From contig NZ_JAKZMM010000014.1 in assembly GCF_022809355.1 (NCBI RefSeq), positions 1-64,000 on the forward strand: a DNA stretch of 64,000 nt, in the 5' to 3' direction. The position numbers and the translations under genes are program-made. Below are positions 20,816 to 50,253 of this stretch, one piece after another. The DNA is from Parabacteroides faecalis (GTDB taxonomy: Bacteria; Bacteroidota; Bacteroidia; Bacteroidales; Tannerellaceae). Within the stretch, counting starts at the first letter, position 1, and each line of letters opens with the position of its first letter. Below the pieces are notes generated by a model. It was not told where the DNA came from. It saw only the letters and a program-made list of their open reading frames with translations, and did not search any database.

Positions 20816-20840
20816 TGTTTCCACCTTATTTTTCCGGCTG

Positions 20841-20914: not shown

Positions 20915-21136
20915 AAAAACGTGCAAAATCCAAGAAAGAGGTCTTTCCCACACTTTGCACGTCTGCGAGAAGCGATTTAGGGGTCTTTCTTGCACTCTGC
21001 AAGTCGTACAAAACCCAAGAAAGAGGTCTTTCTCACACTTTGCACATCTGCGAGAAACGATTTAGAGGTCTTTCCCGCACTCTGCAAGTCGTGTAAAGCC
21101 AAAGAAAGAGGTCTTTCTCGCATTTTGCACGTTTTT
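20915..21136. repeat. Array C: 42.5-bp period repeats enclosed by a 14-bp inverted repeat
   Basis: GTCTTTC recurs at 20941, 20983, 21026, 21068 and 21111, a spacing of 42, 43, 42 and 43 bp. Two half-units alternate, giving an 85-bp higher-order period. One half carries GAAAGAGGTCTTTC next to TTTGCAC and the other carries GCGATTTAGRGGTCTTTC next to TGCACTCTGCAAG. The whole array is closed by a perfect 14-bp inverted repeat (20915-20928 and 21123-21136, core ACGTGCAAAA). It fills the gap between the tamB stop and the beta-barrel gene promoter. No T-run follows, so it is not a plain terminator. Confidence 0.85.
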
Positions 21137-30225: not shown

Positions 30226-30497
30226 ATTTCTATCTGATTTAAAATAAGAAAACATCAAAGTAAATAAACAAGAAGGGAATTACGGGTATTACAGATCTCC
30301 TTTATTTTTGTCAACTTCATTCTCTACACACGATGTTCCTTGAGATTCTCCACCTTCTCCACAATCTCTTTATAGCATTAATTATTCATTACTGAAAGGG
30401 AACCCTAGCCTGCTAACACGAGAATCATATTCATTTTCAATTCGGCTTTTATACTATAAAAGGCATTATAATAAATAAACACAACTAATCTAGAGGA

Positions 30498-30609
30498 AAT
30501 ATTTTGCCGTTTTTTGCGTGCTTTTGGAAAACAAAAAATCCCGATTTCGCTTGGAAATCAGGATTTTACTGTCTTTTGCTTTTCTTCAAAGTGGTGCCAC
30601 CAGGAATCG
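30498..30609. repeat. attL: 112-bp direct repeat of the tRNA-Phe 3' region
   Basis: This copy matches 50,087-50,198 at a constant offset of 19,589 bp with four mismatches, and the last 82 bp are identical. It holds the last 18 nt of tRNA-Phe (plus-strand TGGTGCCACCAGGAATCG) and the tRNA terminator hairpin. Right of 30,609 the tRNA homology stops abruptly, as expected at an attachment-site junction. Confidence 0.88.
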
Positions 30610-31118: not shown

Positions 31119-32039
31119 TTAAGAAAAAAATGGAGTGCCATTTGTTTGTATCACATATTCAAAACTTACTTCATCATTCTGATCTCCTCGTGTGTCATCT
31201 TTTATTACCAGTATTTTAAGTGCAGAATAAAACCCATTAATATTCTGCAATATGACTATTTGTCCAATTTTAGGAGTTCTTACCCGTGATGAATTATCAT
31301 AAATACGAGCATCTACAATTTGTTTTATTTCTAAACAGTCTTTTACTAAGGCTATATTATCAACACTTTCCGAATCATTATAAATGTGTATCCTTTCATT
31401 GCTCGCCTTTGAAAAACACAATTCAAACATCAACTCATCTTGTCCTATGCAGTATCTTCCATTGTTATTTGAATAATCGAATGTTACTTGACCTTGAACA
31501 GCTGGTGAAAAGTATTTCTCATTTTGTGGTATAAATTTCTGCTTTGAAAAGTTTTTGATATTCTCAAATGGATTTTTCCCTATTGGAGGAATTGGAAGTA
31601 CTGGTTCATCTAGAATATCTCTTAACAATTCCTCATACTTAGTTTCATAAAGATTAGGATCACAAAAATCAATGTATTGTCTACCAGCTAAAAATGTAGG
31701 CACCTTCTTATTTGTTTTATTATTCTTTATTAGAGGAATGACCCAATCTTTATTTTGATCTTGAAGATATTCTGCTGATATGATTTGTTTTTCATATCCT
31801 GCACCACCTGTACCATTATTTGCTTTCTCAACATATTTCTCAGAACATATACAAATTACTCTGTGCGCTTTAGTTAGACCTTTCTCCATAAAAGCAGCCA
31901 AGTTACTGCCTAATTTGATATTCCATCTATCTAAAATAACGTCAACTCCATTAGAACGCAATCTAGTTGCTAATTGCAAAACCCATTCTTTATGTTCATC
32001 ATTATCATGAGAATATGAGATAAATACTTCTGGAATCAT
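31119..32039 (-). CDS. SEFIR/TIR domain protein, likely defence effector
   Basis: This 306-residue protein has an N-terminal SEFIR/TIR-type domain (residues 1-150). VFISYSHDNDEHKEWVLQLA is the first strand and helix, DVILDRWNIKLGSNLAAFM follows, and VICICSEKYVEKANN and GAGYEKQIISAEYL complete the fold. The C-terminal 150 residues are beta-rich and not recognised; they could be a sensor. Bacterial TIR/SEFIR proteins commonly act in anti-phage defence, often by depleting NAD+. It lies 48 bp after the PD-(D/E)XK gene and is the last gene of the methylase operon. The family call is strong, while the NADase role is inference. Confidence 0.85.
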   Translation of the reverse strand: MIPEVFISYSHDNDEHKEWVLQLATRLRSNGVDVILDRWNIKLGSNLAAFMEKGLTKAHRVICICSEKYVEKANNGTGGAGYEKQIISAEYLQDQNKDWVIPLIKNNKTNKKVPTFLAGRQYIDFCDPNLYETKYEELLRDILDEPVLPIPPIGKNPFENIKNFSKQKFIPQNEKYFSPAVQGQVTFDYSNNNGRYCIGQDELMFELCFSKASNERIHIYNDSESVDNIALVKDCLEIKQIVDARIYDNSSRVRTPKIGQIVILQNINGFYSALKILVIKDDTRGDQNDEVSFEYVIQTNGTPFFS

Positions 32040-32087
32040 ATTAAGCGCGTTTTAATTACTAAAAACAATATTTTGAATTTATAAATC

Positions 32088-32747
32088 CTAATCATTATCT
32101 ATATATTCTAATTCAGTTCGTATAGAACTTAACAAGCCACTAAACCAATCGGATACTTGCTTACTTGATTCTATAGAGGTAGAATGAGTCATATCATCCT
32201 CCCATTTCCCTTTCATTGCAAAATGGAATTTTTTTAATGATGCGACTTGCTCTTTCTCTGGTTCAAGAATGGCCATAAATCCATTCTCGCCAAATTCTTT
32301 TGCATATTCATTAAAAGTATTTGCTACGGAAGTATCTGATGTTATATGCCAGTGAGGTTGTGGATGACAAATTTGTTCATTATCATAATCATCCCATTCT
32401 GCCCTAAATAGCTGAATAATTTTTTCGCTTAATGATTTAAATACAGATATGGAGATTGAACACTGAGTAATAACAATATCTGCTTTTCTTTTTCCTTTAG
32501 GAACTCTAGAATCAAAAACAAACTTAACCTCAATATAAAGATAATACCTACCAAACCAATGGCATACATCGACTTCAGAATCAGCATCTCCATCTAATCT
32601 ATTGACAGCCTTAAAACTTCCAATATTATTAAATATCAGAAGTTTATGACCGTCTTTTTTGTATGTTTTTAATAGGAAACCATTTCCAATAATTAGCTTG
32701 CACTTTTCATTTAAGTTCGGTATAAGTTTATCATAATCCTTTATCAT
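32088..32747 (-). CDS. Predicted PD-(D/E)XK nuclease partner of the N6-methylase
   Basis: This 219-residue protein is of no named family that I recognise. Residues 58-75 read EVDVCHWFGRYYLYIEVK: Asp 60, then a hydrophobic strand, then Glu 73-x-Lys 75. This is the arrangement of the PD-(D/E)XK restriction endonuclease core. A second conserved-looking block, HPQPHWHIT, lies near residue 128. The start overlaps the methylase stop by 17 bp, indicating tight co-expression. Together with the methylase it would make a Type II-like restriction-modification pair. The nuclease call is inferred from the motif and context and has not been shown by a family match. Confidence 0.55.
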   Translation of the reverse strand: MIKDYDKLIPNLNEKCKLIIGNGFLLKTYKKDGHKLLIFNNIGSFKAVNRLDGDADSEVDVCHWFGRYYLYIEVKFVFDSRVPKGKRKADIVITQCSISISVFKSLSEKIIQLFRAEWDDYDNEQICHPQPHWHITSDTSVANTFNEYAKEFGENGFMAILEPEKEQVASLKKFHFAMKGKWEDDMTHSTSIESSKQVSDWFSGLLSSIRTELEYIDND

Positions 32748-35073
32748 ATTCTACTCCAAACAATGTTTTAGCTAGTTCGTTAATTCGTTCTGAATAAAAG
32801 TATGAGCCATCTTCAGAAATTGCCTTCCCAAGTGCAACTAATTCTAAATATAACCTCGATTCTCTGAGCCCGAGATTATTAACATTTGGGATCGGTATTG
32901 AATTGGTGTATTTCGCGGCGAAGTCATACCAATCTCCACCAGCCAATTGTCTAGCGTATATAGAAAGTAGTTTTTCAAATGAAGAACTTGAAAACAGGGC
33001 AAGATAAAAGTAGTAATCGGATTGCTTAAATTCTTTTTTAGGAATCCAAGCATATCCCCGTTCAATCACATAATTTCCTTTTACATCAAGAGAAAATGAT
33101 TTGGTAGTTCCAAATTCAGTTGAAACTAAACGGCACTCTTTCTTTAGAAGCCACTCTCTATGACGACTTAAAGCCCACCAATAATGTTTATTATTTAATG
33201 AAGAGCGATTCTCTAATTTGTTCTTGTGTTTTATTAATCTCTGAAACGTATTAGGGCATTCAACTTTTAGCTGTTCTTCAGATGTTATAATTAATCCTGA
33301 ATTATCATATGGAAACCATACATAATTCTTAGCTTTTAATTTGGAAAATGAGATAGCCTCATTATCAATGGATTTTCTATAATATCTTTTCTCATTGGTT
33401 GACAGTTTTTCATATTCATCTGATCCAATGATAAAAATATCATTGCCTCCAGTTCTAATCCCTTGCTTTACAGTGAAAATAGATTGAAGTCTTACAAGAT
33501 GTCCATTCAAAAGTGCATCATTCAATTTATCTTTGAAAAGTGCATCTTGTTTTGAAACAATTTTCCAAGATCCTTGAGCGTCGGGATATGAAACAGGCGA
33601 ATAAATACTATATTTTTTTGTGTCTTTTTCAATTAGGCCACTCGCTTCTATTTTTCTTAATGAACATAGAGCTTCTTGTGCAACTCCATTTTCATTTCTG
33701 CACCATAATAATTTAGGTGTTACAAAAACTTCTGTAAGTTTCTGACCTACGTATAAACTCACGTCAGTTAAAGCATTATCAAAAATAAAATTACCTAGCT
33801 TTGCTGCAAAATAAGGATGAATTTCTTCTTTTAATTGATTCCGAATTCCTTTATAGGCATCTGATTCAAACAAAGAAGTTGGTGTTACACATCCTAAAAT
33901 ACCATTGTCAGGTAATGCATCAATCGCTTTCTTAAAGAATGCAATAGCTTGATTAGGTTTTGATACTTTTTCTGACAAACAGCTTGACACAATTTCTCTT
34001 TGATTCTTATTTAATAATTCCCAAGAAGCAAAAGGTGGATTCATTAGTATTATATCATTATCAGTTCCCCAATTTTCTACCAATGAATCTTGAACGAGGC
34101 GTAAATCAATTGACAACTTATCATGCCAAATGTTTTCTTTTTCATAATTCAATAAGAATTTAGATGTACTAATAGCGCTTTCTGAACAATCCCAACCTTT
34201 TATAGTAATGTGTCCATTATATTGCTTATCATATAGTTGCTTTAATACTTCCATCAAGAATTCGGCTGAACCACAAGCTGGATCAAAAATTGTAATATTT
34301 TCCTGATCTAAATTCCTTCTTTTTAAACATTGTTCTACAACGCTCCTAGCGACATACTGTGGAGTATAGTGCGAACTGGAGTATTCTCTTGATGAGGTTA
34401 TAATTTTACTACTTATATCTCCAAACAAATCCCTGTCTGAGTAAAAAGTTTGAACAACCCTATGCGCTTCTTGAAAGATAGGCCCGGAGCAATGTCTAAG
34501 TATTATACCTAAATCAGGTTTAGCTTTTCCTATTCCATTTTTAAGTTCATCAACAAATACTTCAAATTGATTTGGAAGCCTTACATTTGCAATAGCCCAT
34601 TTTTCATAATCTAAATGATTTAGGTCATTCTCAAGAGATATTAAAAGGGTATATAATAGGTTAAGTGCTTCTTGAGGCGAATTTTTTTCGCGAGTAATAT
34701 TCCTCATCTTTCGGAATAAATTAATCACGAATGGAACGACATCGTTACCAGTATAATATGTCTGTTTACCTAAATAATTGTAAAATGCGATAATATTGTT
34801 TTCAATGTCATTAATTTTTATTTTTTCTGGATTAGATTTTAGCCAATTATATATTATAACACGATTGTCTGCAACAGCTAAATAATTTTTTGTATTTGCA
34901 GACCATGCATATGAATTAAACTGATCTATGTCATTGCCAGGATTTAAATCAATGCAAAAATCCTTCTGCCCACCATTTAATAAAGCGTATTTATCTCTAT
35001 TAGTAGGCTTTATGTACATGGGAAATAAGCCAAAATTCTTCCGCCAACTATTAATGTCTCTTATATTAAACAT
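32731..35073 (-). CDS. N6-adenine DNA methylase with C-terminal specificity region
   Basis: This protein of about 780 residues has a helical N-terminal part (1-220), then the gamma-type N6-adenine methyltransferase core: motif I DPACGSAEFLMEVL from Asp 264 and motif IV NPPF at 345-348. About 400 C-terminal residues contain TaqI-like specificity features (KQGIRTGGNDIFIIG and GYAWIPKK). It methylates adenine in a target that cannot be read from sequence. I use ATG 35073 (MFNIRDINSW); the frame extends seven codons further upstream without an ATG. It is first in the operon with the nuclease candidate and the SEFIR protein, and its promoter carries repeats. Confidence 0.88.
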   Translation of the reverse strand: MFNIRDINSWRKNFGLFPMYIKPTNRDKYALLNGGQKDFCIDLNPGNDIDQFNSYAWSANTKNYLAVADNRVIIYNWLKSNPEKIKINDIENNIIAFYNYLGKQTYYTGNDVVPFVINLFRKMRNITREKNSPQEALNLLYTLLISLENDLNHLDYEKWAIANVRLPNQFEVFVDELKNGIGKAKPDLGIILRHCSGPIFQEAHRVVQTFYSDRDLFGDISSKIITSSREYSSSHYTPQYVARSVVEQCLKRRNLDQENITIFDPACGSAEFLMEVLKQLYDKQYNGHITIKGWDCSESAISTSKFLLNYEKENIWHDKLSIDLRLVQDSLVENWGTDNDIILMNPPFASWELLNKNQREIVSSCLSEKVSKPNQAIAFFKKAIDALPDNGILGCVTPTSLFESDAYKGIRNQLKEEIHPYFAAKLGNFIFDNALTDVSLYVGQKLTEVFVTPKLLWCRNENGVAQEALCSLRKIEASGLIEKDTKKYSIYSPVSYPDAQGSWKIVSKQDALFKDKLNDALLNGHLVRLQSIFTVKQGIRTGGNDIFIIGSDEYEKLSTNEKRYYRKSIDNEAISFSKLKAKNYVWFPYDNSGLIITSEEQLKVECPNTFQRLIKHKNKLENRSSLNNKHYWWALSRHREWLLKKECRLVSTEFGTTKSFSLDVKGNYVIERGYAWIPKKEFKQSDYYFYLALFSSSSFEKLLSIYARQLAGGDWYDFAAKYTNSIPIPNVNNLGLRESRLYLELVALGKAISEDGSYFYSERINELAKTLFGVEYDKGL

Positions 35074-35092
35074 ACCGTGCACAATAAAAAAC

Positions 35093-35124
35093 AATATATT
35101 GCAAGTTAATATATTGCAAATATA
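35093..35124 (-). promoter_or_regulatory. Methylase operon promoter with a 12-bp direct repeat
   Basis: TATATTTG on the minus strand (35117-35124) fits the -7 element. Two perfect copies of AATATATTGCAA (35093-35104 and 35108-35119) lie 15 bp apart between it and the start codon. They are candidate operator sites for autoregulation. Confidence 0.5.
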
Positions 35125-35268: not shown

Positions 35269-38200
35269 TTACCTACGATACAGTTTATCTACCATGTTAT
35301 CTAAATTCTCGATAATTTTATTTGCATTTTCATTTTTTGCTTTTAATGAAATGATCTGATTCACTAAATCCTCAATTATTTTTCGCTCTTTAAGAGTAGG
35401 TATAATAATGGGAAGTGGCTTAAGTTTTTCTAATTTGACTTGTGGAAATACTCTATTGCCTTCTTTTACATTTTGCTCATATATATTTCTTATATATTTT
35501 GAATTTAACAATCCACATAGATACTCATATGATAGTTTATCAGTATACTCTGATTTAATTATTCCTGCTTGAATACTACGTCCAAACCAAATTCCTTTAT
35601 AATCTACTGCACATATAGGATGAGAGGCTGTTTGTCTCCACAATAATTTGGGAGATATGCTAAAATAATGCTTATTCAGAATTACACGTTCTCCGTCTCT
35701 TAATGAAATATTAGGACGGCAGAATCTTGATGTATGATTAGATATATTAAAACTATCAATATCAACACCCTTCCAAAATTCAACATCTAACGATGATTCT
35801 TTTTCTCCTTCATATAGGAGTCTTGAACTTAAATCAGATTTTCCTTTTTGTGAAAGTCCCACTTTAACTCGTTGGTAATTTATACCTGCATCTTTGAATT
35901 TAAGGATGGAGCCCAATTCTATAATGTTCTGAGGAAATAGTTTAAGTTCTTCAATAAAAGAGTTATTTAGTGTTGTCTTCCAATATTCTTGTGGAATATT
36001 CTTAAATTTAATGTCACTTAATATTTCCTTAGAGTTTTGAGCTGTAACAATATGTGTCAAATCAGCAAAAGATGTTACGGTATGAGTTTCTGCAAAGCAT
36101 TTACATAAACAAATTGCCACAGGAACTACAGCATCTATAAATATATTCTCACCTAAATCTATGATTTGGGCTATGTTAAAATTTAATAAAACTCTTCTTA
36201 AATCCCCATAACGAGGTTGACGCAAAAATGTATTAGGTGTTATGTAACAAAGTATACCACTATTTCGACAAATAGACAATCCAAAATTATAAAAGTATTT
36301 ATAGATATCTTTATATCCATGTGAAGTGTTAGGATACAATTTCTCATATAAGTAAATTAAATCATCAATATTGGCTCCATACGGCGGATTACCAATTACA
36401 ATATCAAAGCCATTCCTGTTATCATTACGATTGAAGACATCACTAAACCAAGTGTGCCAGAGGAAGAATTTATCATTTTCGGCAAGATTGATTTGTTTCA
36501 GTTCATGGAGAATAGTAGAGTTGTAGTATTGTGCCTCTAGTTGTTTTTTGATGGTGCCCGAAATCTCTTGTTGTAGTTTTACCTTTTTGTCATGCTCGCT
36601 ACAAGAATAATATGCCAATAGCAGATGTGAGACTGTTTTTTGCAAACGGTTTTTCTCATTATCGAAAAGCGAGATTTCCCCTTTATCTTTCTTGTGTTCC
36701 TTTTCATAGGTAAGTTTGCTTAAGTCCACACCCATGAAACTTTCAATAAGCGAGTTACCCTGCATAATCTTATAGTCGAGATTGGGCAATGGTGATGGAG
36801 TCTCCTCATCTACCACGATGGAGAGCCAAAAACGTAAGCGGGCAATATCAACTGCACCTTTCTCAATATCTACTCCATAGATATTGTTTTGGATAATGCT
36901 CTTTTTGATTTCGGCACGGTCATAATAATCGCCACTCAAAACCTCACGACAATGTAACAGTTCATTAAGTAAACCCATAGGAAATGCTCCTGAACCAATG
37001 GCGGGGTCACAAATCTTCACCTCTTCAAGTGCTGTAAGAAGTTTCGGTTTCTTATTCTCTGGAATATCCTTAACTCCCTCTTCTGGTGAAAGTACGAATT
37101 GACGAATTTTGTCTTTTGCTATACTTGTATTGGTTTCGAGGTAGGCAATAAGTGACTCCTGACACATATAGCGTACAATCTCTTTCGGTGTGTAGAATGC
37201 TCCTTTGTCCTTGTTGTCTTCAAGTAAGTTTTCGAAGATTTTACCCAACATTTCTGGATCTACTCCCACTTCGGCATCGTTGGGGTCATTCTCGTCAATG
37301 GTAAAGTTGTATTCACTGAAGAATTGGAACAAGCGTTTGAAATAATCAGCAGGGAAACGACTTTCGGGTTCGTCTTCCTTATCACGCTCAAATAAACCAC
37401 CATTTAGGTATGGAATATCTTTCCATTCATTAAGTAGTGATTTATCCCAATCGTAATCGGCAAACAGGGCTGCACGCTCGGCAGGTTTAGTGTTCAAGAT
37501 ACCGAAGAATAACGGTTCAAGCACTGAGTCGAGATAATCGTTTTTGTACGGTGAGTTCTCAAACATATTCTGCATATAGTTGAGGTCGCCACATATCCAA
37601 CCTTTGCGTTGCAAGAAATGAAGGAAGGTGATGCGACCCATCATCTTCTTTACATAATCACGGATTTTCTTTTCGTTGTAGTCAAACGCTCCCATCAATG
37701 CTGCATTGGGCTCACTAAGTCTTTTCTCTTCCCACTTACTGCCCACCTTAACAAAACGCTTACCTGTAATATATTGGATAAAGTCGGCGTATTGCTCGCG
37801 ATATCTGTCGAAGAACTCATCAGAAAGGGCTTCAACAGAGAATGCAGATTTCAAATTTTCAAATGAAATACCTTTTTTCTTTAAGAAGTTGAAACGCTCA
37901 ATAGGCGTTCTGTATAGCAAATCATCACTACCAAAAACGTATGTATATCGTTTAGGCGATGTCGCTTCTCCCTTGATATCACAAATAAATGACAAACGCC
38001 AATGGTCGCCACTATCAAATACCACCAATGCGGCATCAAACTCCCCCCAAGTCGGATTGATGAATGACTTTACAAGATTGCGTAGCCCTATACGCCTGTT
38101 TGCAACAGAGCCTTTTGTAATATTGTAATGAAATAAACCGATACGATAACTGTCTGTAGTATCTATATTTCCCAAATAGTAACCATCATCAGAGGTGCTT

Positions 38201-38334
38201 CCTATGATCCTTTCTGGTTCTTCTTTCAATTCGGTTGCATTGAAAAAATATTGTAGGAAAGTGTACCACTGAGTCAGATTGAAAGATGATCGGAATAGTT
38301 TTCTCAAAATATCCGGTGTATATGTAGCTGTCAT
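35269..38334 (-). CDS. Eco57I-like adenine methylase (restriction-modification type)
   Basis: This 1,021-residue protein contains an N6-adenine methyltransferase core of the Eco57I type. DPAIGSGAF is motif I (443-451) and IVIGNPPYGAN holds motif IV at 649-652. KGAFYTPKEIVRYM precedes the core, as in Type IIG and BREX-like methylases. The C-terminal 250 residues resemble a TaqI-like target-recognition region, including KLEKLKPLPIIIPTLKERK. The N-terminal 380 residues are helical, with no nuclease motif I can point to. The start lies 8 bp after the PLD-SNF2 helicase stop, so the two form one operon. No brx, pgl, drmA or drmB gene is present. Function is inferred as modification or as part of a DISARM-like system. 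Confidence 0.88.
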   Translation of the reverse strand: MTATYTPDILRKLFRSSFNLTQWYTFLQYFFNATELKEEPERIIGSTSDDGYYLGNIDTTDSYRIGLFHYNITKGSVANRRIGLRNLVKSFINPTWGEFDAALVVFDSGDHWRLSFICDIKGEATSPKRYTYVFGSDDLLYRTPIERFNFLKKKGISFENLKSAFSVEALSDEFFDRYREQYADFIQYITGKRFVKVGSKWEEKRLSEPNAALMGAFDYNEKKIRDYVKKMMGRITFLHFLQRKGWICGDLNYMQNMFENSPYKNDYLDSVLEPLFFGILNTKPAERAALFADYDWDKSLLNEWKDIPYLNGGLFERDKEDEPESRFPADYFKRLFQFFSEYNFTIDENDPNDAEVGVDPEMLGKIFENLLEDNKDKGAFYTPKEIVRYMCQESLIAYLETNTSIAKDKIRQFVLSPEEGVKDIPENKKPKLLTALEEVKICDPAIGSGAFPMGLLNELLHCREVLSGDYYDRAEIKKSIIQNNIYGVDIEKGAVDIARLRFWLSIVVDEETPSPLPNLDYKIMQGNSLIESFMGVDLSKLTYEKEHKKDKGEISLFDNEKNRLQKTVSHLLLAYYSCSEHDKKVKLQQEISGTIKKQLEAQYYNSTILHELKQINLAENDKFFLWHTWFSDVFNRNDNRNGFDIVIGNPPYGANIDDLIYLYEKLYPNTSHGYKDIYKYFYNFGLSICRNSGILCYITPNTFLRQPRYGDLRRVLLNFNIAQIIDLGENIFIDAVVPVAICLCKCFAETHTVTSFADLTHIVTAQNSKEILSDIKFKNIPQEYWKTTLNNSFIEELKLFPQNIIELGSILKFKDAGINYQRVKVGLSQKGKSDLSSRLLYEGEKESSLDVEFWKGVDIDSFNISNHTSRFCRPNISLRDGERVILNKHYFSISPKLLWRQTASHPICAVDYKGIWFGRSIQAGIIKSEYTDKLSYEYLCGLLNSKYIRNIYEQNVKEGNRVFPQVKLEKLKPLPIIIPTLKERKIIEDLVNQIISLKAKNENANKIIENLDNMVDKLYRR

Positions 38335-41300: not shown

Positions 41301-41636
41301 CATCTGCAATATGCCTTCCTCTACTTCGGGAGAATATCGAGCATTTACAATATCCTCTTTGAAACCGTTGTGATAGATTTCTTTTGCTTTATCTTCATCA
41401 GCAAGCATCAAAAGAGCCTTGTTATGCTTCCGGAAAATATCATCAATATTGATACCTACCAATATCTTGATTTCTGATATATTACCTAATTCTTTACGCA
41501 ACTTGAAATATCCAGATGAACGAAAGAAGCCCACTACAGCTAAAAAACGTTCGAATGTTACCATCTCCGCCGCAATACCTTTTAACTTATCAAAAAGAGT
41601 ATTACCCGGTATATTATTGAAAAACTTTGTACTCAT
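38343..41636 (-). CDS. PLD-domain SNF2-family helicase
   Basis: This 1,097-residue protein has an N-terminal phospholipase D-like domain, with LHAKFYL giving His 132-x-Lys 134 followed by GSSNISDSGLG. A full SNF2/RapA-type helicase follows: Walker A GLGKT at 278-282, DEAH at 357-360, LLSATPLNN, and motif VI QRIGRVNRIG near 795-805. A C-terminal region of about 290 residues is not recognised. PLD domains of this type can be nucleases. I use ATG 41636 (MSTKFFNN). It is the first gene of the helicase/methylase operon. Its only visible consensus promoter lies in an invertible-looking segment and points the wrong way in this sequence, so the operon is probably OFF here. It resembles fused DISARM DrmC and DrmD. 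Confidence 0.88.
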   Translation of the reverse strand: MSTKFFNNIPGNTLFDKLKGIAAEMVTFERFLAVVGFFRSSGYFKLRKELGNISEIKILVGINIDDIFRKHNKALLMLADEDKAKEIYHNGFKEDIVNARYSPEVEEGILQMCEDLVSGRLQMRIHATKNLHAKFYLCLPQNHSENSDGWVIMGSSNISDSGLGIKQLPQYELNVAMKDFDDVKYCSDEFWALWNEAVPLTAKDIEEYRKNTYLGYQPTPYELYIKVLIDTFGDQVEDDFSIQLPDGVKDLKYQRDAVIQGYQMLMQHNGLFLADVVGLGKTMIATMIAKRFVEANGKNTNILVVYPPALEDNWRNTFKLFGIYKKTQFITNGSLSKVLESKDNYKDKEEFDLIIVDEAHSFRSDSSGKYDELQKICKSPCLNMGLLKSTQKKVMLLSATPLNNRPDDLQNQLLLFQNSQNCTIDGVPNLKGFFAPLIYEYKRLMRERDQRDVTAEVDKIYEQIRSKVIDKVTVRRTRNNILNDPDYKADIKSQGIIFPNILPPNELEYVMGSDTSNRFYETLKQLTDGKTDENPEGKGLTYARYRAVEFLKPEYRSKYKNAVHIGQTLAAIYRVHMVKRLESSFYAFKKSLRTLLRITTDMIKMFDEDKVIIAPDLKVKDLQAKNMELDEIIEYAIAKGYATEDILFPANAFSSDFLEMLHHDREILEQLNADWAKENDDPKFDKFRENLTNVFFDTTINPSGKLVLFSESVDTLNYLYDRLTKEIGRTDVLMVTASNRNRLGQTIKENFDANFDSNSMRYNIIITSDVLAEGVNLHRSNVIVNYDSPWNATRLMQRIGRVNRIGSVATNIYNYMFYPSQQGDKEIQLYKNALVKLQGFHSAFGEDAQIYSKEEIVKEFQMFDNNVKDSIDKKIALLREVRELYKRDRKLYHKIKALPMKSRVIRDTGKHSGKSVIFVSSNVKTEFYLATQTGIEIIDFLEAVKYLKARPEEQPSQFTNEKQHYKHVNSALAQYTTDYVEAADTSSINRTDLDKTSLEANKFLRTIKQITTDCELKSKCDVLMGYINEGIYAQLPRYLKALSREYKNDRSKMKQDEYSLQNKISELLGEYQTMDKEQRHDAQDISNPQIIISESFK

Positions 41637-41695
41637 AATTTTATACTTAATACAAAGCCCCTCCAAACAAAATACAATACATGAATTTATTCTCT

Positions 41696-41868
41696 CTTAG
41701 ACAGAGGGAGATTTCAGGCTATAAGGCTGATTTGCTGATGAATTATATGTAGAATTGCTAAACAACAGTTGAAATTCAATGACTTCCGGATAAAAATCCA
41801 ACGGCCGGAATTGCAGGATTTTCAATAAAATGTATAACTTTGCGCAAGAGTGAGTCCCTCTGTCTAAG
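41696..41868. promoter_or_regulatory. Candidate invertible promoter (phase switch) of the helicase/methylase operon
   Basis: A perfect 14-bp inverted repeat, CTTAGACAGAGGGA at 41696-41709 and TCCCTCTGTCTAAG at 41855-41868, encloses 145 bp. Inside, TAACTTTG (41835-41842) with ATTG (41810-41813) 21 bp upstream forms a Bacteroidetes promoter directed right, away from the helicase start at 41636. Inversion would place the -7 element near 41722-41729 facing left into the helicase, with a leader of about 80 nt. No leftward TAnnTTTG is visible in the present orientation. An invertase-like recombinase gene ends at 41901, 33 bp away. Confidence 0.72.
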
Positions 41869-41900
41869 AAATGAATGCTTTTGCTAAACATTCTCCAATC

Positions 41901-43103
41901 CTACAGACTTTTCAGAATTTGTGCGTTAGCTTTGTCCACTACGGAGTTATCTAATGAGGCCAGATAAATTTGTGTAGTCGTCTCGGAATCATGTCCCATT
42001 CCTTCACTGATAACCGAAATCGGAATGTTCTTGCCTTTGGCTGCGCTTGCCCATGAATGACGGGCACAGTACATGCTCAGAGGAACGGATATATCGGCCA
42101 GTCTGGCTATTTCTTTCAGGTTTCGGTTTATTCCGGACATGACATTTCTGTAATGCTTGTGCGTATCCTTAAAAGGATATTTCAATACCGGCAAAAGATA
42201 AGGACTGAGGCTGTCTTCCGGTTTTTTGCCGACAATCTCTTGCATACATTTTTCCCACTTGATGACCAGCTGCTGACCGGTCTTTCGTCTGCGATATGAT
42301 AAGAATCCGTTCTGAAGATCTTTCTTTTTCAGGTGAGCCATATCAATGAACGACATGCCACGGGTATAGAAACTGAACAGGAACATGTCCCTTGCAAATT
42401 CCAGATTAGGCTGTAAGGACAGATCCAGATTCTTCATACGCTTGATGGCGGATAAGGGAACAGCACGCTTGACGGTCTTGTCCACTCCCGTATAGACATG
42501 CCTGAAAGGATTGCGCTGTTCCATCAGTTCCTTTTCCAAGGCACGGTTATATACCGCCCGAAGAATACGCATGTAGAACGAACTGGTATTCCGTACGGCA
42601 CCTTTTCCATGAAGATAGGCTTCATAAAGCTGCATCAAGTCCGAATCGATTTCAGACAACAGAATATCCCTGTCTCCTCTGAACTGCATGAAACTTTTCA
42701 GGGTGCAGGAATAATTTTCAGCAGTGCGTATCTTGCCCATCTGTTTTAGACGGGCTATGATGCCTTGCATGAAGTTGAAAAACGACTGTCCCTCTGTATT
42801 GCTTTGAAAAGAAGCGACAATATCATCTGCTGTATATCCGGCTTTCCGGTTATTCAGTTGACGGATAATCATGTCCAGTCGTTTCAAGTCCCACTCCATG
42901 CGTTCCTGCAAGGAAAGAAGCAGATTGCTTCGTTCCGAACTACCGACAATGATACAGCTTCCAGCTTCGTTCCATTCGTTCGTAAATATCCGGTAATCCG
43001 TCTTTAACTGACGGATTACACGGTTTTGGATAATCTGATAATAGATGGTACCTTCCTTTCCCTCTATGGTGGAAGGTCTGAATTTCACTTTGACACTGGC
43101 CAT
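41901..43103 (-). CDS. Tyrosine recombinase 2, likely promoter invertase
   Basis: This 400-residue tyrosine recombinase is colinear with recombinase 1 at 29,023-30,225. It has the same domain order and the same MYCARHSWASAA box (Tyr in place of the usual His of H-x-x-R), with a C-terminal GMGHDSETTTQIYLASL containing the nucleophile Tyr. Its 3' end lies 33 bp from the right arm of the candidate invertible promoter, the arrangement of local promoter invertases in Bacteroides. It starts 4 bp after the coiled-coil gene, so it belongs to the end of the mobilization operon. The element's own integration is more likely done by the integrase at 48,698-49,936. Confidence 0.88.
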   Translation of the reverse strand: MASVKVKFRPSTIEGKEGTIYYQIIQNRVIRQLKTDYRIFTNEWNEAGSCIIVGSSERSNLLLSLQERMEWDLKRLDMIIRQLNNRKAGYTADDIVASFQSNTEGQSFFNFMQGIIARLKQMGKIRTAENYSCTLKSFMQFRGDRDILLSEIDSDLMQLYEAYLHGKGAVRNTSSFYMRILRAVYNRALEKELMEQRNPFRHVYTGVDKTVKRAVPLSAIKRMKNLDLSLQPNLEFARDMFLFSFYTRGMSFIDMAHLKKKDLQNGFLSYRRRKTGQQLVIKWEKCMQEIVGKKPEDSLSPYLLPVLKYPFKDTHKHYRNVMSGINRNLKEIARLADISVPLSMYCARHSWASAAKGKNIPISVISEGMGHDSETTTQIYLASLDNSVVDKANAQILKSL

Positions 43104-43107
43104 GGGC

Positions 43108-43875
43108 TTACTTTTTAGATTTGTCCGTAATAGACTTGTCCTTGATGGATTTCGCCTTACTGTCCAGTTCTCTCGCGGCCTGTTCTTTCAGCCGTGCCTG
43201 CTCGGTCAGGGTGGCCTGTCTCCGTACTGCTTCCTCGTAGGCTTCCACGTCCTCACGCATCTGTTCTATCCGTCCGTTATCCCGGTTCGGTCCAAAGAGG
43301 TTTTCAAGTTCCACGAGTTGCTCGGGGGTAGCCTCTCCTTTCATCTTGACATAACGGTACTTCAGATCATTATCGACTTGTGCGTTATCTGTTCTCGTCG
43401 AAAAATAGAGCGCCACGGACAGGGCCACGATTGCCGCGAACATCACGGAAAAACTCCCAAGGATGTACGGGGATTCCAAGCTCAGGCTGAAATGATGGTT
43501 GATGTTGCTTGTCTTGACGGCATTCTTCCTGATTGTGTCATTGGTCTCACAAAACAGGTTTTCCACTTTCTCCTGGTTCTGCCGCTGTTCATTATGCATT
43601 TCCGACAAGACCTGTCCAAGTCTTTCCTGTGACGAGTTTTTCCTGTCCATGGAAACCATATCGTTCTTGATGGCGGCAAGGCCTTCGTACACGCGAGCCA
43701 ACAATTTGCGAAATGTCTCATGACCTTTCCGGACTTCATTCAGCACGGACTCATCCTGTGTATTATTAACTGTCGGGCTGTTGCCTTCCGGCGAGGGGAC
43801 GGACAACCCGTTGATTTTGTCCTCGATTCTTTCCAGGCATCCGAAGATGCTCTCGATACATTCTTCCATTTTCAT
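43108..43875 (-). CDS. Coiled-coil membrane protein of the mobilization operon
   Basis: This 255-residue protein is mostly helical, with coiled-coil stretches over about 1-120 and 190-255. One membrane segment, ILGSFSVMFAAIVALSVALYF, lies near residues 140-160. The last 40 residues are rich in Lys, Asp and Ser (AKSIKDKSITDKSKK). I do not recognise the family, but genes of this build accompany relaxase genes in Bacteroides mobilizable elements. It lies 49 bp after the relaxase and 4 bp before recombinase 2. It may anchor or partner the relaxosome, but that is inference. Confidence 0.75.
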   Translation of the reverse strand: MKMEECIESIFGCLERIEDKINGLSVPSPEGNSPTVNNTQDESVLNEVRKGHETFRKLLARVYEGLAAIKNDMVSMDRKNSSQERLGQVLSEMHNEQRQNQEKVENLFCETNDTIRKNAVKTSNINHHFSLSLESPYILGSFSVMFAAIVALSVALYFSTRTDNAQVDNDLKYRYVKMKGEATPEQLVELENLFGPNRDNGRIEQMREDVEAYEEAVRRQATLTEQARLKEQAARELDSKAKSIKDKSITDKSKK

Positions 43876-43924: not shown

Positions 43925-44854
43925 CTACAATCCGAAACCTTTCCTTTTTTGTCTCTTTTTCCTGTGTCTGCGCAAGAGTTCTTCCTGAGATAACGGCTCT
44001 TCGGGAGCGGTGCCGCTTGTCGGGCTGAACAGTCCCGGTCCCGTACTTTCGAGAAGATGGCCTCCGTCTGGTATCCTTTGCTGCACCTTACGTTCGGATT
44101 CCTGTTGGGATTCCGAAGTCTTCCAGCCCAGCCGGGCATTCAGTCTGGCAAAGCTGAACTCCCGGCTGATCTGTGAAGCCTTGAAGGTCTGCCCGTCCTT
44201 GGTGAACCGGATTCCCTGTATGTCCTCCGGCCTTTTTATCTCTCGGGTACGCTTTACAAATTCCAGCCTGATGCCCCGGCGAAGCAGATAATCGTTGAAC
44301 TCTTTCCATGTTCCGGAGTGCTTCAAAGCCTCCTTGACGGCATTGAAGATTTCGTATTTTACACGTTCCGAAGCATGGAGTTTCTCCACGTTAGTCTTGC
44401 CCTTGTCCTCGGCGTATGTCAGCCCGTACTTGTTCTTAAGTAGTTTTGTGGCGATTTCGTTACGTTTGTAATCGCCTTGGGAAGAGATTACCTTGCCGTC
44501 ATACCCGATGCGGTTATAGACCAGGTGGCAGTGCGGATTGTCCGTGTTATGATGCCTTACCAGGATGAACTGAGTGTTTTTTATCCCCATCAGTTCCATA
44601 TATTCCCGGGCTATTTTAGCCATAAACTCATCCGTCAGCAATGCCTTGTCTTCCGGTTTGAAGCTCAATGCGATGTGCCCGACAGGCTGTTTTATCTTCG
44701 GATTAAGCTCACGCTGGTAGTTGAAACTGTCCGTTATTTCCCGGATATTTTCCAGCAGTACACCGTCTGAGTCGATGATTTCCGCGTTGTCCTTGCCCAT
44801 CACGTAGCGGATACAGCCGCCGAAGGATTTCCCTTTCTTGATCTTGCCAATCAT
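43925..44854 (-). CDS. Relaxase/mobilization nuclease (MobA/VirD2-like)
   Basis: This 309-residue relaxase shows the metal-binding motif RHHNTDNPHCHLV (His 101, 102, 108 and 110). MIGKIKKGKSFGGCIRYVM at the N-terminus is typical of Bacteroides relaxases, and its Tyr is a candidate nucleophile (others lie nearby). The protein nicks oriT and pilots the strand during mobilization. Its C-terminus is shorter than in plasmid relaxases and has no primase region. The start overlaps the MobC stop by 4 bp (ATGA), so the two are translationally coupled. Confidence 0.92.
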   Translation of the reverse strand: MIGKIKKGKSFGGCIRYVMGKDNAEIIDSDGVLLENIREITDSFNYQRELNPKIKQPVGHIALSFKPEDKALLTDEFMAKIAREYMELMGIKNTQFILVRHHNTDNPHCHLVYNRIGYDGKVISSQGDYKRNEIATKLLKNKYGLTYAEDKGKTNVEKLHASERVKYEIFNAVKEALKHSGTWKEFNDYLLRRGIRLEFVKRTREIKRPEDIQGIRFTKDGQTFKASQISREFSFARLNARLGWKTSESQQESERKVQQRIPDGGHLLESTGPGLFSPTSGTAPEEPLSQEELLRRHRKKRQKRKGFGL

Positions 44855-45225
44855 GACGGCCTCCTTTCTCCGTACCTGTACCGGACAATAATCTCCTTGA
44901 GTTTCTGCAGGAGTTCTGTCACCGTCCTTTGGGTACGGTGGAATCCGGCCTGATGGGACAGACGGGTCAGCTGGTTCAGGTTGTTCGCCATACCCGTGAG
45001 GCTGCGTATGACGGCAGTCTCCTCGGCAGAGTGCCTGGCCGTTATCGTCGTCTCAAAGGCTGATACGCGGAGGAATTCTGCCAGCGTGAGGTTGGCCTGT
45101 CTGCTGCGTCGGCACAACCGCTCATAGTCTATCTTGGAGAATTTCACTGTAACGGCTTTGCTGAGTTTGCACACTCCGCTTACTCTGGGGCGTCCCCTCG
45201 GTCTGTTTTTCTTTCTGTCATTCAT
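44851..45225 (-). CDS. MobC-like relaxosome accessory protein
   Basis: This 124-residue basic protein has an N-terminal RPRGRPR tract and the MobC core: VTVKFSKIDYERLCRRSRQANLTLAEFLR (a ribbon-helix-helix), then NNLNQLTRLSHQAGF. MobC proteins bind oriT and help relaxase nicking. I use the ATG giving MNDRKKNRPRG; a longer frame would extend into the oriT-like hairpins. The 4-bp overlap with the relaxase is a common arrangement. Confidence 0.9.
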   Translation of the reverse strand: MNDRKKNRPRGRPRVSGVCKLSKAVTVKFSKIDYERLCRRSRQANLTLAEFLRVSAFETTITARHSAEETAVIRSLTGMANNLNQLTRLSHQAGFHRTQRTVTELLQKLKEIIVRYRYGERRPS

Positions 45226-45290
45226 ATTTTCTTCGTTTGATTTCTGATTATTCTTTTTCTCACAATCTGCGACCATCGGGAGCGGATTGC

Positions 45291-45454: not shown

Positions 45455-45919
45455 TCACAGCTTTCGCCACTGTTCGAAGTCCTCCGAGTAGATTTCAAGA
45501 TGCTGCCGGGCGATGTTCTCAAGCAATCCGGAAACGCTCATTTTACGTCCTCCTAACCTACGGACAAACTCGTCCAGCCTGTCACGTACCTCACCGCTAA
45601 CAAATACAGGCTTGCGGTCTTCTATTCTCGGAACCATAAGAAAGGTTTTCCTGTATTCGTCCAGGGAAAGTTTTCTCTGTCTGCTGCTTATACGACGTTG
45701 AGATGCGGGAACAGCTTCCTCTTTTCCGATTGATGGTTGCTGGTTCTCGGATGGGGTATCGGTCCGTTCTACCGTGCCTTTTGATTTCTCTTTTCCGGTA
45801 TCATTCAAGGATGATTCCATGGCAGTTTCAATGCCGCCATCTGACGGGAGTATGAATGACATGTCCGTACCTGTCATGGCCTCCCATTCTTCTTTGGTCA
45901 ATTTCTTTTTTGTTACCAT
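45455..45919 (-). CDS. DUF3408 domain protein
   Basis: This 154-residue protein has a disordered, Ser/Lys-rich N-terminal half and a C-terminal block: DEYRKTFLMVPRIEDRKPVF, then RLDEFVRRLGGRKMSVSGLLE, then ARQHLEIYSEDF. It matches DUF3408 proteins of Bacteroides conjugative and mobilizable elements, thought to be ribbon-helix-helix DNA-binding proteins. It is first in the minus-strand mobilization cluster and lies next to the candidate oriT. Confidence 0.85.
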   Translation of the reverse strand: MVTKKKLTKEEWEAMTGTDMSFILPSDGGIETAMESSLNDTGKEKSKGTVERTDTPSENQQPSIGKEEAVPASQRRISSRQRKLSLDEYRKTFLMVPRIEDRKPVFVSGEVRDRLDEFVRRLGGRKMSVSGLLENIARQHLEIYSEDFEQWRKL

Positions 45920-46254
45920 ACATTTTTGATTTTAATCGGTTTACTCACTGGTCTCGGTGCGCACCTTGACTCATTGTCGTGAGCAAAGGAAATGTGTATA
46001 GTGAACAGAATCAAGCAAATGGAGGTACCGTGGCAATTATGTTACCCTATGCACTATACCGATTGGGCGGTCGGTGCTGCCTGCCGTGATTTGCCGGAGT
46101 GATTCCTATATACCGGATTGTTCAAGCGGATTCCGTTTATGAAGAAGGCTCATTGTATGCACTTGATATGTAACATGATGTCATTCCGGGCAACGCATCG
46201 TCACCGGTCTGAAAATCCATTGTAGTGTGATTTCTACTGCTTTTATTTGCAGTG

Positions 46255-46735: not shown

Positions 46736-47041
46736 ATGAGTAATGAAATCAGAGAAAAGGACCACGAGTGGGTAAAGACATTCCATTCGAATTTCGACAG
46801 GCTGCTGGCCCTGCTCGAAAAGTTGTTGGAGAAACGGCAACCGTCTGCCTATGGCGATGAACTGCTGACAGACAAGGAAGTGGCATACCTGCTGAAAGTA
46901 AGCCGGAGAACCTTGCAGGACTACCGCAACAACGGCATTCTGCCTTACACACAGGTAGGCGGCAAGATTCTCTACCGGGCTTCCGACATAGAAAAGACAC
47001 TGATGAAAGGCTACAAGGAGGCGTACCGACTTAATGAATAA
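46736..47041 (+). CDS. Helix-turn-helix excisionase-like protein 2
   Basis: This 101-residue paralogue of the preceding gene shows LTDKEVAYLLKVSRRTLQDY, then NNGILPYTQVGGKILYRASD near residues 42-85. It has the same layout of coiled-coil N-terminus and winged helix. It is probably a DNA-binding excision factor or regulator. The next gene (Fic) starts 162 bp later, behind a repeat array. Confidence 0.88.
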   Translation: MSNEIREKDHEWVKTFHSNFDRLLALLEKLLEKRQPSAYGDELLTDKEVAYLLKVSRRTLQDYRNNGILPYTQVGGKILYRASDIEKTLMKGYKEAYRLNE

Positions 47042-47203: not shown

Positions 47204-48226
47204 ATGCAAACCGAACTTGAAAAATTGATTTCCCTTTATCGGGGATTGGAAATAGACAAGCAGATAGATTATGACAAGTTCTATTTGTATTCACTCATTA
47301 CTCATTCCACAGCTATCGAGGGATCGACTATAACAGAGCTTGAAAATCAAATCATGTTCGACCAGGGAATCAGCCTGAAAGGGAAAAGTATCACGGAGCA
47401 GAACATGAATCTTGATCTTAAAAACGCTTATGAGACTGCCATAAAACTAGCTCATGCACATACTGATATCACTATTGATTTATTGAAAAGTCTCTCTGCT
47501 CTTGTCATGAAAAATACCGGACAGGAGTATAAGACTGCATTGGGAGATTTCTCATCTGCAAAGGGAGACTTACGCCTGTTGAATGTTACGGCAGGAGTTG
47601 GAGGCAAATCGTATATGAATTACAGTAAAGTCCCGGTAAAACTCGCGGAATTTTGCAATTGGCTGAATCAAGAACGAAAAAATTATGCAAGCAAAAGTGT
47701 TGCACAATTATACGAGCTCAGTTTTGATACCCATTATCATTTGGTGACTATACATCCGTGGGCTGATGGTAACGGCAGAATGGCACGTCTTGTAATGAAC
47801 ATGCTTCAATTTGAGTTTGGATTGATTCCGACCAAAATCCTTAAGGATGATAAGGAGGAATACATCAAAGCATTGGTGGAAACTCGGGAAAATGAAGATT
47901 TAAGTATATTCCGGAATTTTATGACTGCCACTATGGTGAAGAATCTTGCTTATGACATTGATACTTATCGGAAATCCATTGAAGATATTCCTGAGAGTGG
48001 GGAGAAACAGACAGAAAGTAGGGAGAAAAAGGTGAAAAGTAGGGAGAAAATTATTGCTCTGCTATCTCAAGACAATTCACTAAGTGCAGCTGCCCTTGCC
48101 GAGCGGATAGGCATAACCCCTAAAGCTGTGGAAAAGCATATTGCCAAGATGAAGGCAGAAGGAATACTCAAGCGTGTCGGACCGGATAAAGGCGGACACT
48201 GGCAGGTCGTAGAAAAAACGGATTGA
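47204..48226 (+). CDS. Fic family protein with C-terminal winged helix
   Basis: This 340-residue protein has a Fic domain, with the core HPWADGNGRM at 184-193 (catalytic His 184). An N-terminal inhibitory motif STAIEG, with Glu 39, matches the class II self-inhibited type. The core should transfer AMP from ATP to a target protein. Residues 265-285 form three 7-residue repeats built on SREK(K/I), encoded by the 21-bp DNA repeats. A winged helix follows (LSAAALAERIGITPKAVEKH, ending HWQVV), so the protein can probably bind DNA. The matching repeats in its own leader suggest autoregulation. No separate antitoxin is needed in this class. Confidence 0.92.
   Translation: MQTELEKLISLYRGLEIDKQIDYDKFYLYSLITHSTAIEGSTITELENQIMFDQGISLKGKSITEQNMNLDLKNAYETAIKLAHAHTDITIDLLKSLSALVMKNTGQEYKTALGDFSSAKGDLRLLNVTAGVGGKSYMNYSKVPVKLAEFCNWLNQERKNYASKSVAQLYELSFDTHYHLVTIHPWADGNGRMARLVMNMLQFEFGLIPTKILKDDKEEYIKALVETRENEDLSIFRNFMTATMVKNLAYDIDTYRKSIEDIPESGEKQTESREKKVKSREKIIALLSQDNSLSAAALAERIGITPKAVEKHIAKMKAEGILKRVGPDKGGHWQVVEKTD
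47997..48050 (+). repeat. Three 12-bp repeats with a 21-bp period inside fic
   Basis: GTGGGGAGAAAC (47997-48008), GTAGGGAGAAAA (48018-48029) and GTAGGGAGAAAA (48039-48050) have the same word, order variant and 21-bp spacing as the upstream set. In frame they encode a 7-residue repeat in the linker before the winged helix. Confidence 0.8.
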
Positions 48227-48697: not shown

Positions 48698-49936
48698 TTA
48701 ACGAGAAAGATTGCCTGAAAGTACATCCCTTACATTATTCATATCTTTCAGAATGGAACTGTCGAGTACCCTTGCATAGTGCTGCGTCATCTTTATATTG
48801 GAGTGACCGAGCATTTTGGCTACATTCTCTATGCTTACTCCATTGGCCAAACAGACAGATGTGGCGTACGAGTGACGGGCAGTGTGTGTAGTCAGGTTCT
48901 TCTTTATCAAACACAGGTCGGCAATCTCTTTCAGGTAGCTGTTCATCTTCTGATTGCAGGGGACAGGCAGTAATACTCCTTTCTTTTTGCAGGCAGGATA
49001 ATCTGCATATTTTCTCAGGATTTCCAAAGGAATATCCAACAGCGGGATATTACACATGTTCTTTGTTTTCTGACGTGGCTTCCTGATCCACAGGTTTCCG
49101 TTGTTGTCTTTTACGATATGCTCAGAGGAAAGTTGTTGCACGTCGATAAAAGCCAAACCGGTAAAGGCGGCGAAAATAAAAACATCACGGACTACGGTGA
49201 TTCGCTCCAGAGGAAATTCCTTGTGGTAGATAGTCAGCAGTTCGTCCATGGTAAGAAATTCACGGATTACTTCTTTTTCGTGGAATTTGATACCGATAAA
49301 CGGGTCTTTGGCTATCCATTCATTGGCCAGTGCCAGATTGGTAATTTTCTTCAGACATTTCATATAACGGATAACGGTATTTTGCTGACATTCCTTTTCA
49401 GTCTTCAAATAAAATTCAAAGGCACGTACCAGCTCACCGTTGACTTCCGCCAGCGGCAGATCATCCTTTCCGTATTTCTGTCTGATAAGTTCGGCAAGAT
49501 AGCGCTTACAGCTTTCATAACGGCGAACGGTAATCAGGGCGTAGTCTTTCCCGACCAGGGCACGGCATTGGTCATTGTGCTCCTGCATGGTGCCGATAAG
49601 AGTGCGTACCGCTTCCGGTTCTTTGTCTTGTCCGAAAAATATTTCCTGCAACAGACGCGCTGTTATAGGCTGGTTCTGTTCTTCCAGTTCACAAAAAATC
49701 TGATGTAATTTGATTCTCGCATTTTCGATATAGGCATTCAGATCGCATGATTTGCGGCTTTTTCCTCTGGCAGATTCCTTTGCCTGACTCCAGAGAGACG
49801 GATCAATGCTTTTACGGATGTTGTTCTCGACTCGCGTACCATCTACAGTGATACGCATACACACGGATGCTTCTCCGTTTTTCAGCAGCTTGGTCTTCTT
49901 CAAGAAGAAAAGCACATTGAATGAACTTCTTTTCAT
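48698..49936 (-). CDS. Site-specific tyrosine integrase of the element
   Basis: This 412-residue integrase has an N-terminal arm-binding domain, a SAM-like core-binding domain (about 100-190) and a catalytic domain with Arg in FTGLAFIDVQQL, the canonical LTTHTARHSYATSV (His-x-x-Arg), LGHSNIKMTQHYARV, and the Tyr nucleophile in that block. It lies next to attR and its 5' end faces the tRNA gene, as expected for the enzyme that integrates the element. I use ATG 49936 (MKRSSFNVLFFL), because a consensus -7 element overlaps the only earlier start. It is distant in sequence from recombinases 1 and 2. Confidence 0.93.
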   Translation of the reverse strand: MKRSSFNVLFFLKKTKLLKNGEASVCMRITVDGTRVENNIRKSIDPSLWSQAKESARGKSRKSCDLNAYIENARIKLHQIFCELEEQNQPITARLLQEIFFGQDKEPEAVRTLIGTMQEHNDQCRALVGKDYALITVRRYESCKRYLAELIRQKYGKDDLPLAEVNGELVRAFEFYLKTEKECQQNTVIRYMKCLKKITNLALANEWIAKDPFIGIKFHEKEVIREFLTMDELLTIYHKEFPLERITVVRDVFIFAAFTGLAFIDVQQLSSEHIVKDNNGNLWIRKPRQKTKNMCNIPLLDIPLEILRKYADYPACKKKGVLLPVPCNQKMNSYLKEIADLCLIKKNLTTHTARHSYATSVCLANGVSIENVAKMLGHSNIKMTQHYARVLDSSILKDMNNVRDVLSGNLSR

Positions 49937-49960
49937 TTTTCCTACAGTTTTTAGTTTGTA

Positions 49961-49968
49961 CAAAAGTA
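49961..49968 (-). promoter_or_regulatory. -7 element for the element integrase
   Basis: TACTTTTG on the minus strand fits TAnnTTTG, 25 bp from the chosen integrase start. It supports that start over a TTG at 49963. Confidence 0.5.
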
Positions 49969-50086: not shown

Positions 50087-50198
50087 AATATTCTGCCGTT
50101 TTTTGCGTGCCTGGGGAAAACAAAAAATCCCGATTTCGCTTGGAAATCAGGATTTTACTGTCTTTTGCTTTTCTTCAAAGTGGTGCCACCAGGAATCG
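50087..50198. repeat. attR: 112-bp direct repeat including the tRNA-Phe 3' end
   Basis: This is the partner of 30,498-30,609. Four mismatches are all in the first 31 bp, and 82 bp are identical. Its right end is the last 18 nt of the intact tRNA-Phe gene. Confidence 0.88.
50121..50156 (-). terminator. Terminator of tRNA-Phe
   Basis: On the minus strand AAATCCTGATTTC pairs with GAAATCGGGATTT with G-U or mismatched positions, followed by TTTTG. An identical copy lies in attL (30,532-30,567). Confidence 0.8.
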
Positions 50199-50253
50199 AA
50201 CCGGGGACACAAGGATTTTCAGTCCTTTGCTCTACCAACTGAGCTATGGCACC
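50181..50253 (-). tRNA. tRNA-Phe (GAA)
   Basis: The 73-nt cloverleaf on the minus strand has acceptor GGTGCCA/TGGCACC with discriminator A, D-arm GCTC-AGTTGGTA-GAGC, anticodon arm AAGGA-CTGAAAA-TCCTT with anticodon GAA, and T-arm CCCGG-TTCGATT-CCTGG. CCA is not encoded beyond the acceptor stem. The mobile element is integrated at its 3' end and leaves it intact. Confidence 0.98.

Follow-up and report, generated by a model that had tools for sequence, protein, structure and literature searches.

An invertible promoter on a mobilizable element of Parabacteroides faecalis as the probable phase-variation switch of a helicase-methylase operon and slot for varied defence modules

In a window of 64,000 nucleotides from Parabacteroides faecalis (the whole stretch of DNA analysed here), we describe what is very probably a phase-variation switch on an integrative mobilizable element: a small invertible promoter that drives a helicase-methylase operon and that, together with the mobilization backbone and a neighbouring recombinase, Int1, forms a mobile slot for different defence modules. 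Judging from the sequences compared below, it looks as though entire immune systems can be activated, shut off and exchanged behind one switch. L numbers denote loci and G numbers genomes. The switch and the genes on either side of it are as follows (position in the window, strand, feature).

31119-35094, minus: more defence-like cargo, probably outside switch control (second N6 methylase, 219-aa gene, bSEFIR gene)
35269-38334, minus: Eco57I-type N6-adenine methylase with TaqI-like C-terminal specificity domain, 1021 aa
38343-41636, minus: PLD (HKD) and SNF2/DEAD helicase, 1097 aa, first gene of the switched operon
41637-41694, minus: leader, 58 nt, between arm and helicase start
41695-41709, no strand: cargo-proximal arm of a 15-bp perfect inverted repeat, sequence TCTTAGACAGAGGGA
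41710-41854, no strand: invertible segment, 145 bp, OFF orientation, reversed in L228 (G742)
41810-41842, plus: Bacteroidetes-type promoter (ATTG at 41810-41813, 21 bp, TAACTTTG at 41835-41842), pointing away from the helicase
41855-41869, no strand: Int1-proximal arm of the inverted repeat (reverse complement of TCTTAGACAGAGGGA)
41901-43103, minus: Int1, tyrosine recombinase, 400 aa, likely invertase

The initial annotation had described a perfect inverted repeat of 14 bp at 41696-41868; the repeat is indeed perfect, and its true length is 15 bp. The rest of that description agrees with the sequence: the arms enclose 145 bp with a single promoter pointing right, whose two elements and 21-bp spacing we take to be the Bacteroidetes promoter motif, and an operon read leftward begins about 60 bp to the left (the helicase ATG, on the minus strand, starts at 41636 and is separated from the left arm by 58 nt). 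A short promoter-bearing segment between inverted repeats is the arrangement of an inverton. A perfect inverted repeat of at least 15 bp with arms 100-400 bp apart occurred in one of 60 windows of 64 kb simulated with a first-order Markov model, and the real window holds two. We dropped the second, a 15-bp repeat at 20915/21122, which sits in a repetitive stretch (20915-21136, between an ORF ending at 20824 and an ORF starting at 21148). The claim that the gap before the operon holds no other consensus promoter also stood: the best leftward site that a promoter model found in 41600-41800 scored 1.5 bits and ranked 176th in the window. Only this negative result of the model counts, and the 27.5 bits given to the real promoter are inflated, because the training set of homologous switches included one nearly identical to that of the window.

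If the segment is invertible, related elements should carry it in both orientations, a comparison that the initial annotation had proposed. We compiled a set of 13 same-switch elements, the window included, through relaxase and Int1 searches; their Int1 proteins are 96-99% identical and their arms are the same. The segment lies as in the window in 12 of them, matching it directly at 135-145 of 145 positions (the window included). In the remaining one, L228 of G742, it is reversed, with 135 of 145 positions identical to the window as the reverse complement versus 39 of 145 directly, and the outer left flank is the same as in the window at 39 of 40 bases. A separate BLAST search of 61 genomes matched G742 on the strand opposite to Int1, over query positions 35-211 only, and its other six matches were collinear. 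Two further pairs of homologous switches, belonging to the same invertase family, were found in opposite states between collinear flanks: L054 (G014) and L075 (G013), on opposite strands and 99.0% identical over 204 bp, and L010 (contig 21 of the window's own genome) and L046 (G011), 74.5% identical over 196 bp. Both orientations of an inverton are therefore represented across homologous elements. Because L228 carries the segment reversed between unchanged flanks, and BLAST agrees, we conclude that the segment inverts in nature, as the initial annotation had proposed; its reading of the window as the OFF orientation also holds, the promoter facing away from the operon.

A site-specific recombinase, from a family of the same architecture, adjoins the segment, as in invertons. 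Int1 has an Arm-DNA-bind_5, an SAM_5 and a catalytic domain, the make-up of Bacteroidetes integrases. Its frame is intact and its conserved strings were located; we read these as the catalytic R, K, R, H and Y, the usual first His of HxxR presumably being Tyr here. Relatives of Int1 (E 1e-100) occur in 34 of the 123 genomes of the bacterium's family. We surveyed 52 Int1-family loci, including the remote paralogue L012, and found in 33 of them a repeat of 11-27 bp that lies 12-148 nt past the integrase stop and encloses 139-344 bp; the other 19 had no such repeat there. Applied as a control before the start codon or inside the gene, the same filter picked out one of the 52 loci in each case. 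Each repeat-bearing locus also lists a promoter-like TAnnTTTG, a loose pattern, usually beside one arm. A second set of 42 loci, three of which duplicate others in the list, had the repeat in 40; none was found in L241 or in L220, whose contig ends after 56 nt. The placement beside a tyrosine invertase is thus borne out, and from its family and position Int1 most likely recombines the arms. We also observed Int2 (29023-30258), 74% identical to Int1 and just outside the mobile element, which could act on the Int1 arms in trans or be an orphan; no repeat of at least 11 bp was found beside it.

The switch travels with genes typical of an integrative mobilizable element.

30526-30609, plus: 84-bp perfect direct repeat, distal end (att)
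43108-43875, minus: 255-aa gene without a Pfam or NCBIfam match, 4 nt before Int1, conserved backbone
43925-45276, minus: relaxase and NikA/MobC mobilization genes
45455-45919, minus: DUF3408 protein, conserved backbone
48698-49963, minus: integrase of the mobilizable element, near tRNA-Phe
50115-50198, plus: 84-bp perfect direct repeat, tRNA-Phe end, overlapping tRNA-Phe at 50180-50253

An integrase, a relaxase, MobC and 84-bp direct repeats at a tRNA end are all present, and no type IV secretion family was found among the 13 proteins scanned between the direct repeats (a 90-aa ORF at 46243 lay outside the scan). The whole, some 19.7 kb long, looks to be an integrative mobilizable element that carries the switch. 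Within the element we also noted a Fic-family protein with a winged helix (47204-48226). The 255-aa gene lies between relaxase and Int1 in the backbones of L195-L198 and adjoins the relaxase in L199.

The operon facing the switch is most likely a defence module of the restriction-modification (R-M) type, judging from its gene content, an Eco57I/N6 methylase beside an HKD-SNF2 helicase. A methylase match is present at 73 of 80 loci with a homologous helicase, and the best PADLOC model for the helicase is the 'HKD+Snf2' candidate (154 bits). We considered two better-known systems: DISARM, which comprises DrmA, DrmB and DrmC with DrmD or DrmMI, and BREX, which comprises PglZ, BrxC and PglX. The helicase reached 150 of the 610 bits needed for the NCBIfam DISARM DrmD model, with a weaker DrmA match of 61 bits, and no separate DrmA or DrmB gene was present among the operon proteins scanned. 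The methylase reached 110 of the 500 bits needed for the BREX PglX model, and PglZ and BrxC were absent among the matches shown for the operon proteins. We rejected membership in both. The initial annotation had placed a helicase/methylase operon under the switch, and the switched unit is most likely these two genes only: we leave out the second N6 methylase, the 219-aa gene and the bSEFIR gene because a 175-nt gap with an AT-rich hairpin separates them from the methylase and because they do not follow the helicase-methylase pair in the related elements L256 and L279. The bSEFIR-type TIR/SEFIR protein (31119-32039, 268 bits) lies at the far end of the element, and the 219-aa gene has no family. 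Among the helicase elements the C-terminal part of the methylase differs, nucleotide homology to G415 stopping at 36379, as would be expected if target specificity changes.

We then asked whether the switch belongs to this operon or to the element. From position 47029 to the switch, the window is 93-95% identical to two G415 loci and to G291, and in G147 identity runs to the end of Int1. Where elements with the same switch have other cargo (G415, G291 and G234; five BLAST matches), homology stops at 41691, beside the outer edge of the cargo-proximal arm. The 60 bases beyond the arm match the window at 59 positions in L217 and L227, which have helicase cargo, versus 16-18 in ten elements with other cargo. 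Three of the 13 same-switch elements (the window, G415 and G818) face a helicase and methylase, and the other ten face a type II methylase with a large Eco57I/ResIII enzyme of about 1316 aa, whose gene is split in L260, off the contig in L257 and shorter in L258 and L262. Six further loci (L196, L215, L218, L230, L234 and L253) combine an Int1 of 94-97% identity with different arms, 12 bp long and separated by 163 bp, and face a split Eco57I methylase with a T5orf172-ResIII protein. Three such elements occur in G415: one has helicase cargo, one methylase-IIG cargo and one SspB/SspC cargo, and this third one is without Int1 and switch. In that element (L199, 2.92-2.94 Mb), which has the same mobilization backbone, genes of SspB and SspC type, presumably a phosphorothioate-linked defence, stand by eye behind a standing promoter.

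More distant relatives of Int1 (59-71% identical) face type ISP enzymes in L286, L267, L269, L280 and L283, the enzymes of the last four being 83-85% identical, and also a DrmD-like helicase (L268), an HKD-Snf2 protein with a type III methylase (L200) and a MotA/ExbB gene (L201). L286 lies in the window's own genome (contig 21, 66100-73394) and combines an Int1 paralogue of 64-65% identity, a 15-bp repeat, a promoter in the OFF orientation and a type ISP enzyme (1682 aa). In G011 the homologous switch has the other orientation. The Int1 family is not limited to defence cargo: relatives face a ketoacyl synthase (L274), TonB (L281) and, at 53-54% identity, Wzz (L284 and L285). The cargo of L270, L272 and L275 has no telling family, and that of L277 lay outside the family scan. 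L266 (G786), with an Int1 of 87% identity, faces a cluster of several genes, among them large proteins without a family; its tubulin match is weak and below threshold. The cluster is possibly an undescribed defence system or another kind of system.

To relate cargo and invertase, we placed 43 invertases in a tree. The clade that contains the window's Int1 has 17 members, all of them facing R-M modules. Helicase-methylase cargo turns up at three separate points of the tree, namely in this clade, in L279 and in L148, and the nearest neighbour of the window's Int1 is that of L255 (99% identical), whose element has the other cargo. On these grounds the tree indicates that cargo and invertase have been recombined. 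In L148 (Bacteroidales UBA4345) and L279 (G771), the helicase and methylase lie behind Int1 relatives of 58-60% identity with repeats of their own. The order in L148 is invertase, repeat, helicase and methylase; the helicase is 41% identical to that of the window, and the promoter, a weak match (TAACTTTC), faces it by eye.

Viewed from the helicase, the association is rare. Among 80 loci with helicase homologues in genome contigs, L148 is the only one preceded, within 1200 nt, by both a family-type repeat and an invertase of Int1 type; L092, L099 and L150 have less than 200 nt upstream, and L155 fell outside the test. L093 and L094, whose helicases are 93-94% identical to that of the window, have no switch, and we therefore assign the switch to the element rather than to the operon. 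The initial annotation had named absence of the repeat alongside a conserved operon as grounds for refutation, and these two loci show this in part. In eight loci (L037-L044) no switch-like repeat precedes the helicase, the few repeats of 12-17 bp lying in or over genes or only 23 bp apart. We discounted a 17-bp repeat before the helicase of L103, where the promoter, by eye, lies outside the repeat and next to the gene. A palindromic family-like motif lies 198 nt before the start in L092 (helicase of 95% identity), close to where the contig ends; the nine invertase loci of that genome yielded no mate for it. Neither the switch nor the point where it joins the helicase leader matched anything in exact-pattern scans of viral contigs. 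On plasmids, similar DNA covers at most 25% of the query among the matches listed, and the annotated features there are site-specific integrases.

These comparisons suggest how the switch might work. Int1 would bind both 15-bp arms and invert the 145-bp segment. In the inverted, ON state, transcription would start inside the segment about 80 nt upstream of the helicase ATG, cross the arm and the 58-nt leader, and drive the helicase and methylase. In the OFF state, as sequenced, the promoter would point into the 3' end of Int1, and expression of the operon is presumably low. The methylase would mark self DNA and the HKD-nuclease/SNF2 helicase would attack unmarked DNA; since the two would be switched together, a return to ON would have to let methylation precede attack. 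Among 33 R-M-facing switches whose cargo we examined, we judged by eye that 29 promoters point toward the invertase, three away from it (L228, L046 and L148) and one is ambiguous (L245), counts that are not frequencies because one assembly captures one state. Six of the 29 rest on the weak motif TAATTTCG, and in two of these six (L196 and L234) a TAGTTTTG also points the opposite way. That one state predominates could be a sign of rare flipping.

OFF need not mean silent, as the initial annotation had supposed. Upstream of the helicase, on its strand, come Int1, 264 nt away, and the mob genes; we found no intrinsic terminator between Int1 and the helicase, so basal read-through into the operon is possible. 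Taken further, the switch would be real and the operon also read from the mob-Int1 operon, with the promoter merely raising expression. We regard this stronger version as somewhat unlikely: the arrangement recurs with several cargos, which suggests that the promoter matters, and passages of PMC8748976 and PMC11892184 describe Bacteroidales invertible promoters as regulating adjacent genes. The sequenced switch might instead be a decayed remnant locked OFF, a reading for which the 12 OFF elements among 13 could be cited and which is nevertheless very improbable given perfect arms, an intact Int1 frame with conserved motifs, and a segment that is 135-143 of 145 identical between genomes with the promoter motif kept.

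Two other readings give the repeats or the promoter a different role. That the commonest orientation points the promoter into the end of Int1 would suit an invertase feedback, antisense to the 3' end of the gene, in which control of the cargo is secondary. This would leave unexplained why cargo of many different modules starts shortly outside the other arm, and we consider it a still weaker contender than decay. The domain make-up of Int1, being that of Bacteroidetes integrases, could also suggest a second integrase for which the repeats are the site of integration and excision. The element already has an integrase beside tRNA-Phe and its 84-bp direct repeats, however, the related backbone of L199 carries cargo without Int1 and switch, and the segment of L228 is reversed rather than lost; on L228 and L199 we reject this reading, which we hold to be extremely improbable. 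The preferred account remains a promoter switch for exchangeable defence cargo.

Defence systems come at a cost and keep out incoming genes. With a restriction module under a flip switch, one population would contain both immune and permissive cells, and a mobile module of this kind might find entry into an unmethylated host easier. In gut Bacteroidales, we would predict differences in methylome and phage resistance among cells of one clone. The switch would also offer a reason for recombinases beside defence genes, whose role is called unknown in a passage of PMC12529663. More speculatively, the cargo-proximal repeat could double as a site-specific exchange point at which Int1 recombines the arms of co-resident elements and swaps defence modules behind one promoter. 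The result would be a platform resembling a shufflon or an integron, passed among gut bacteria mainly in the OFF state and conferring phase-variable immunity; we think this rather doubtful.

Several known systems resemble parts of this arrangement. Capsule and SusC/D promoters of Bacteroides and Parabacteroides are phase-variable, and they share with the window the promoter type, the small segment and the invertase-driven inversion; they serve surface structures, whereas the cargo here is intracellular defence. Phase-variable R-M systems, or phasevarions, vary by repeat slippage or hsdS shuffling, in contrast to the promoter inversion of the window. From DISARM and BREX come only likenesses of parts, a DrmD-like helicase and a PglX/IIG-like methylase, both far below curated cut-offs. 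Passages of PMC11868660 and PMC5903667 touch on the capsule and SusC/D promoters; phase-variable R-M in Bacteroides is mentioned in the former, and numerous inversion sites in Parabacteroides distasonis in the latter. Invertible promoters have been suggested to control methyltransferase expression in a passage of PMC10333322, and those of PMC10924106 and PMC5608340 offer general remarks only.

We found no paper on a set of invertible promoters with exchangeable defence modules in the open-access literature, which is no proof of absence; that literature does describe mobile elements on which invertible promoters precede variable cargo, in the case of resistance genes. Inverton group 145, in the part of PMC11892184 that describes it, likewise brings together invertons, tyrosine recombinases, mobilization genes (relaxase and MobC) and a restriction gene. 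Its invertons overlap specificity genes (hsdS) and change specificity, whereas in the window the promoter turns and a whole operon would be switched. The closest parallel, described in passages of PMC8748976, is IP-ARG, in which invertible promoters control antibiotic-resistance genes on Bacteroidales ICEs. There, as in the window, a mobile element carries an invertase next to an invertible promoter, the region immediately downstream is highly variable, and near-identical invertases and identical repeats are common to different cargos. IP-ARG differs in carrying resistance or glycan genes on conjugative elements, as against restriction/defence modules on a mobilizable element, and, set against it, the element described here has its border of difference at the cargo-proximal repeat.
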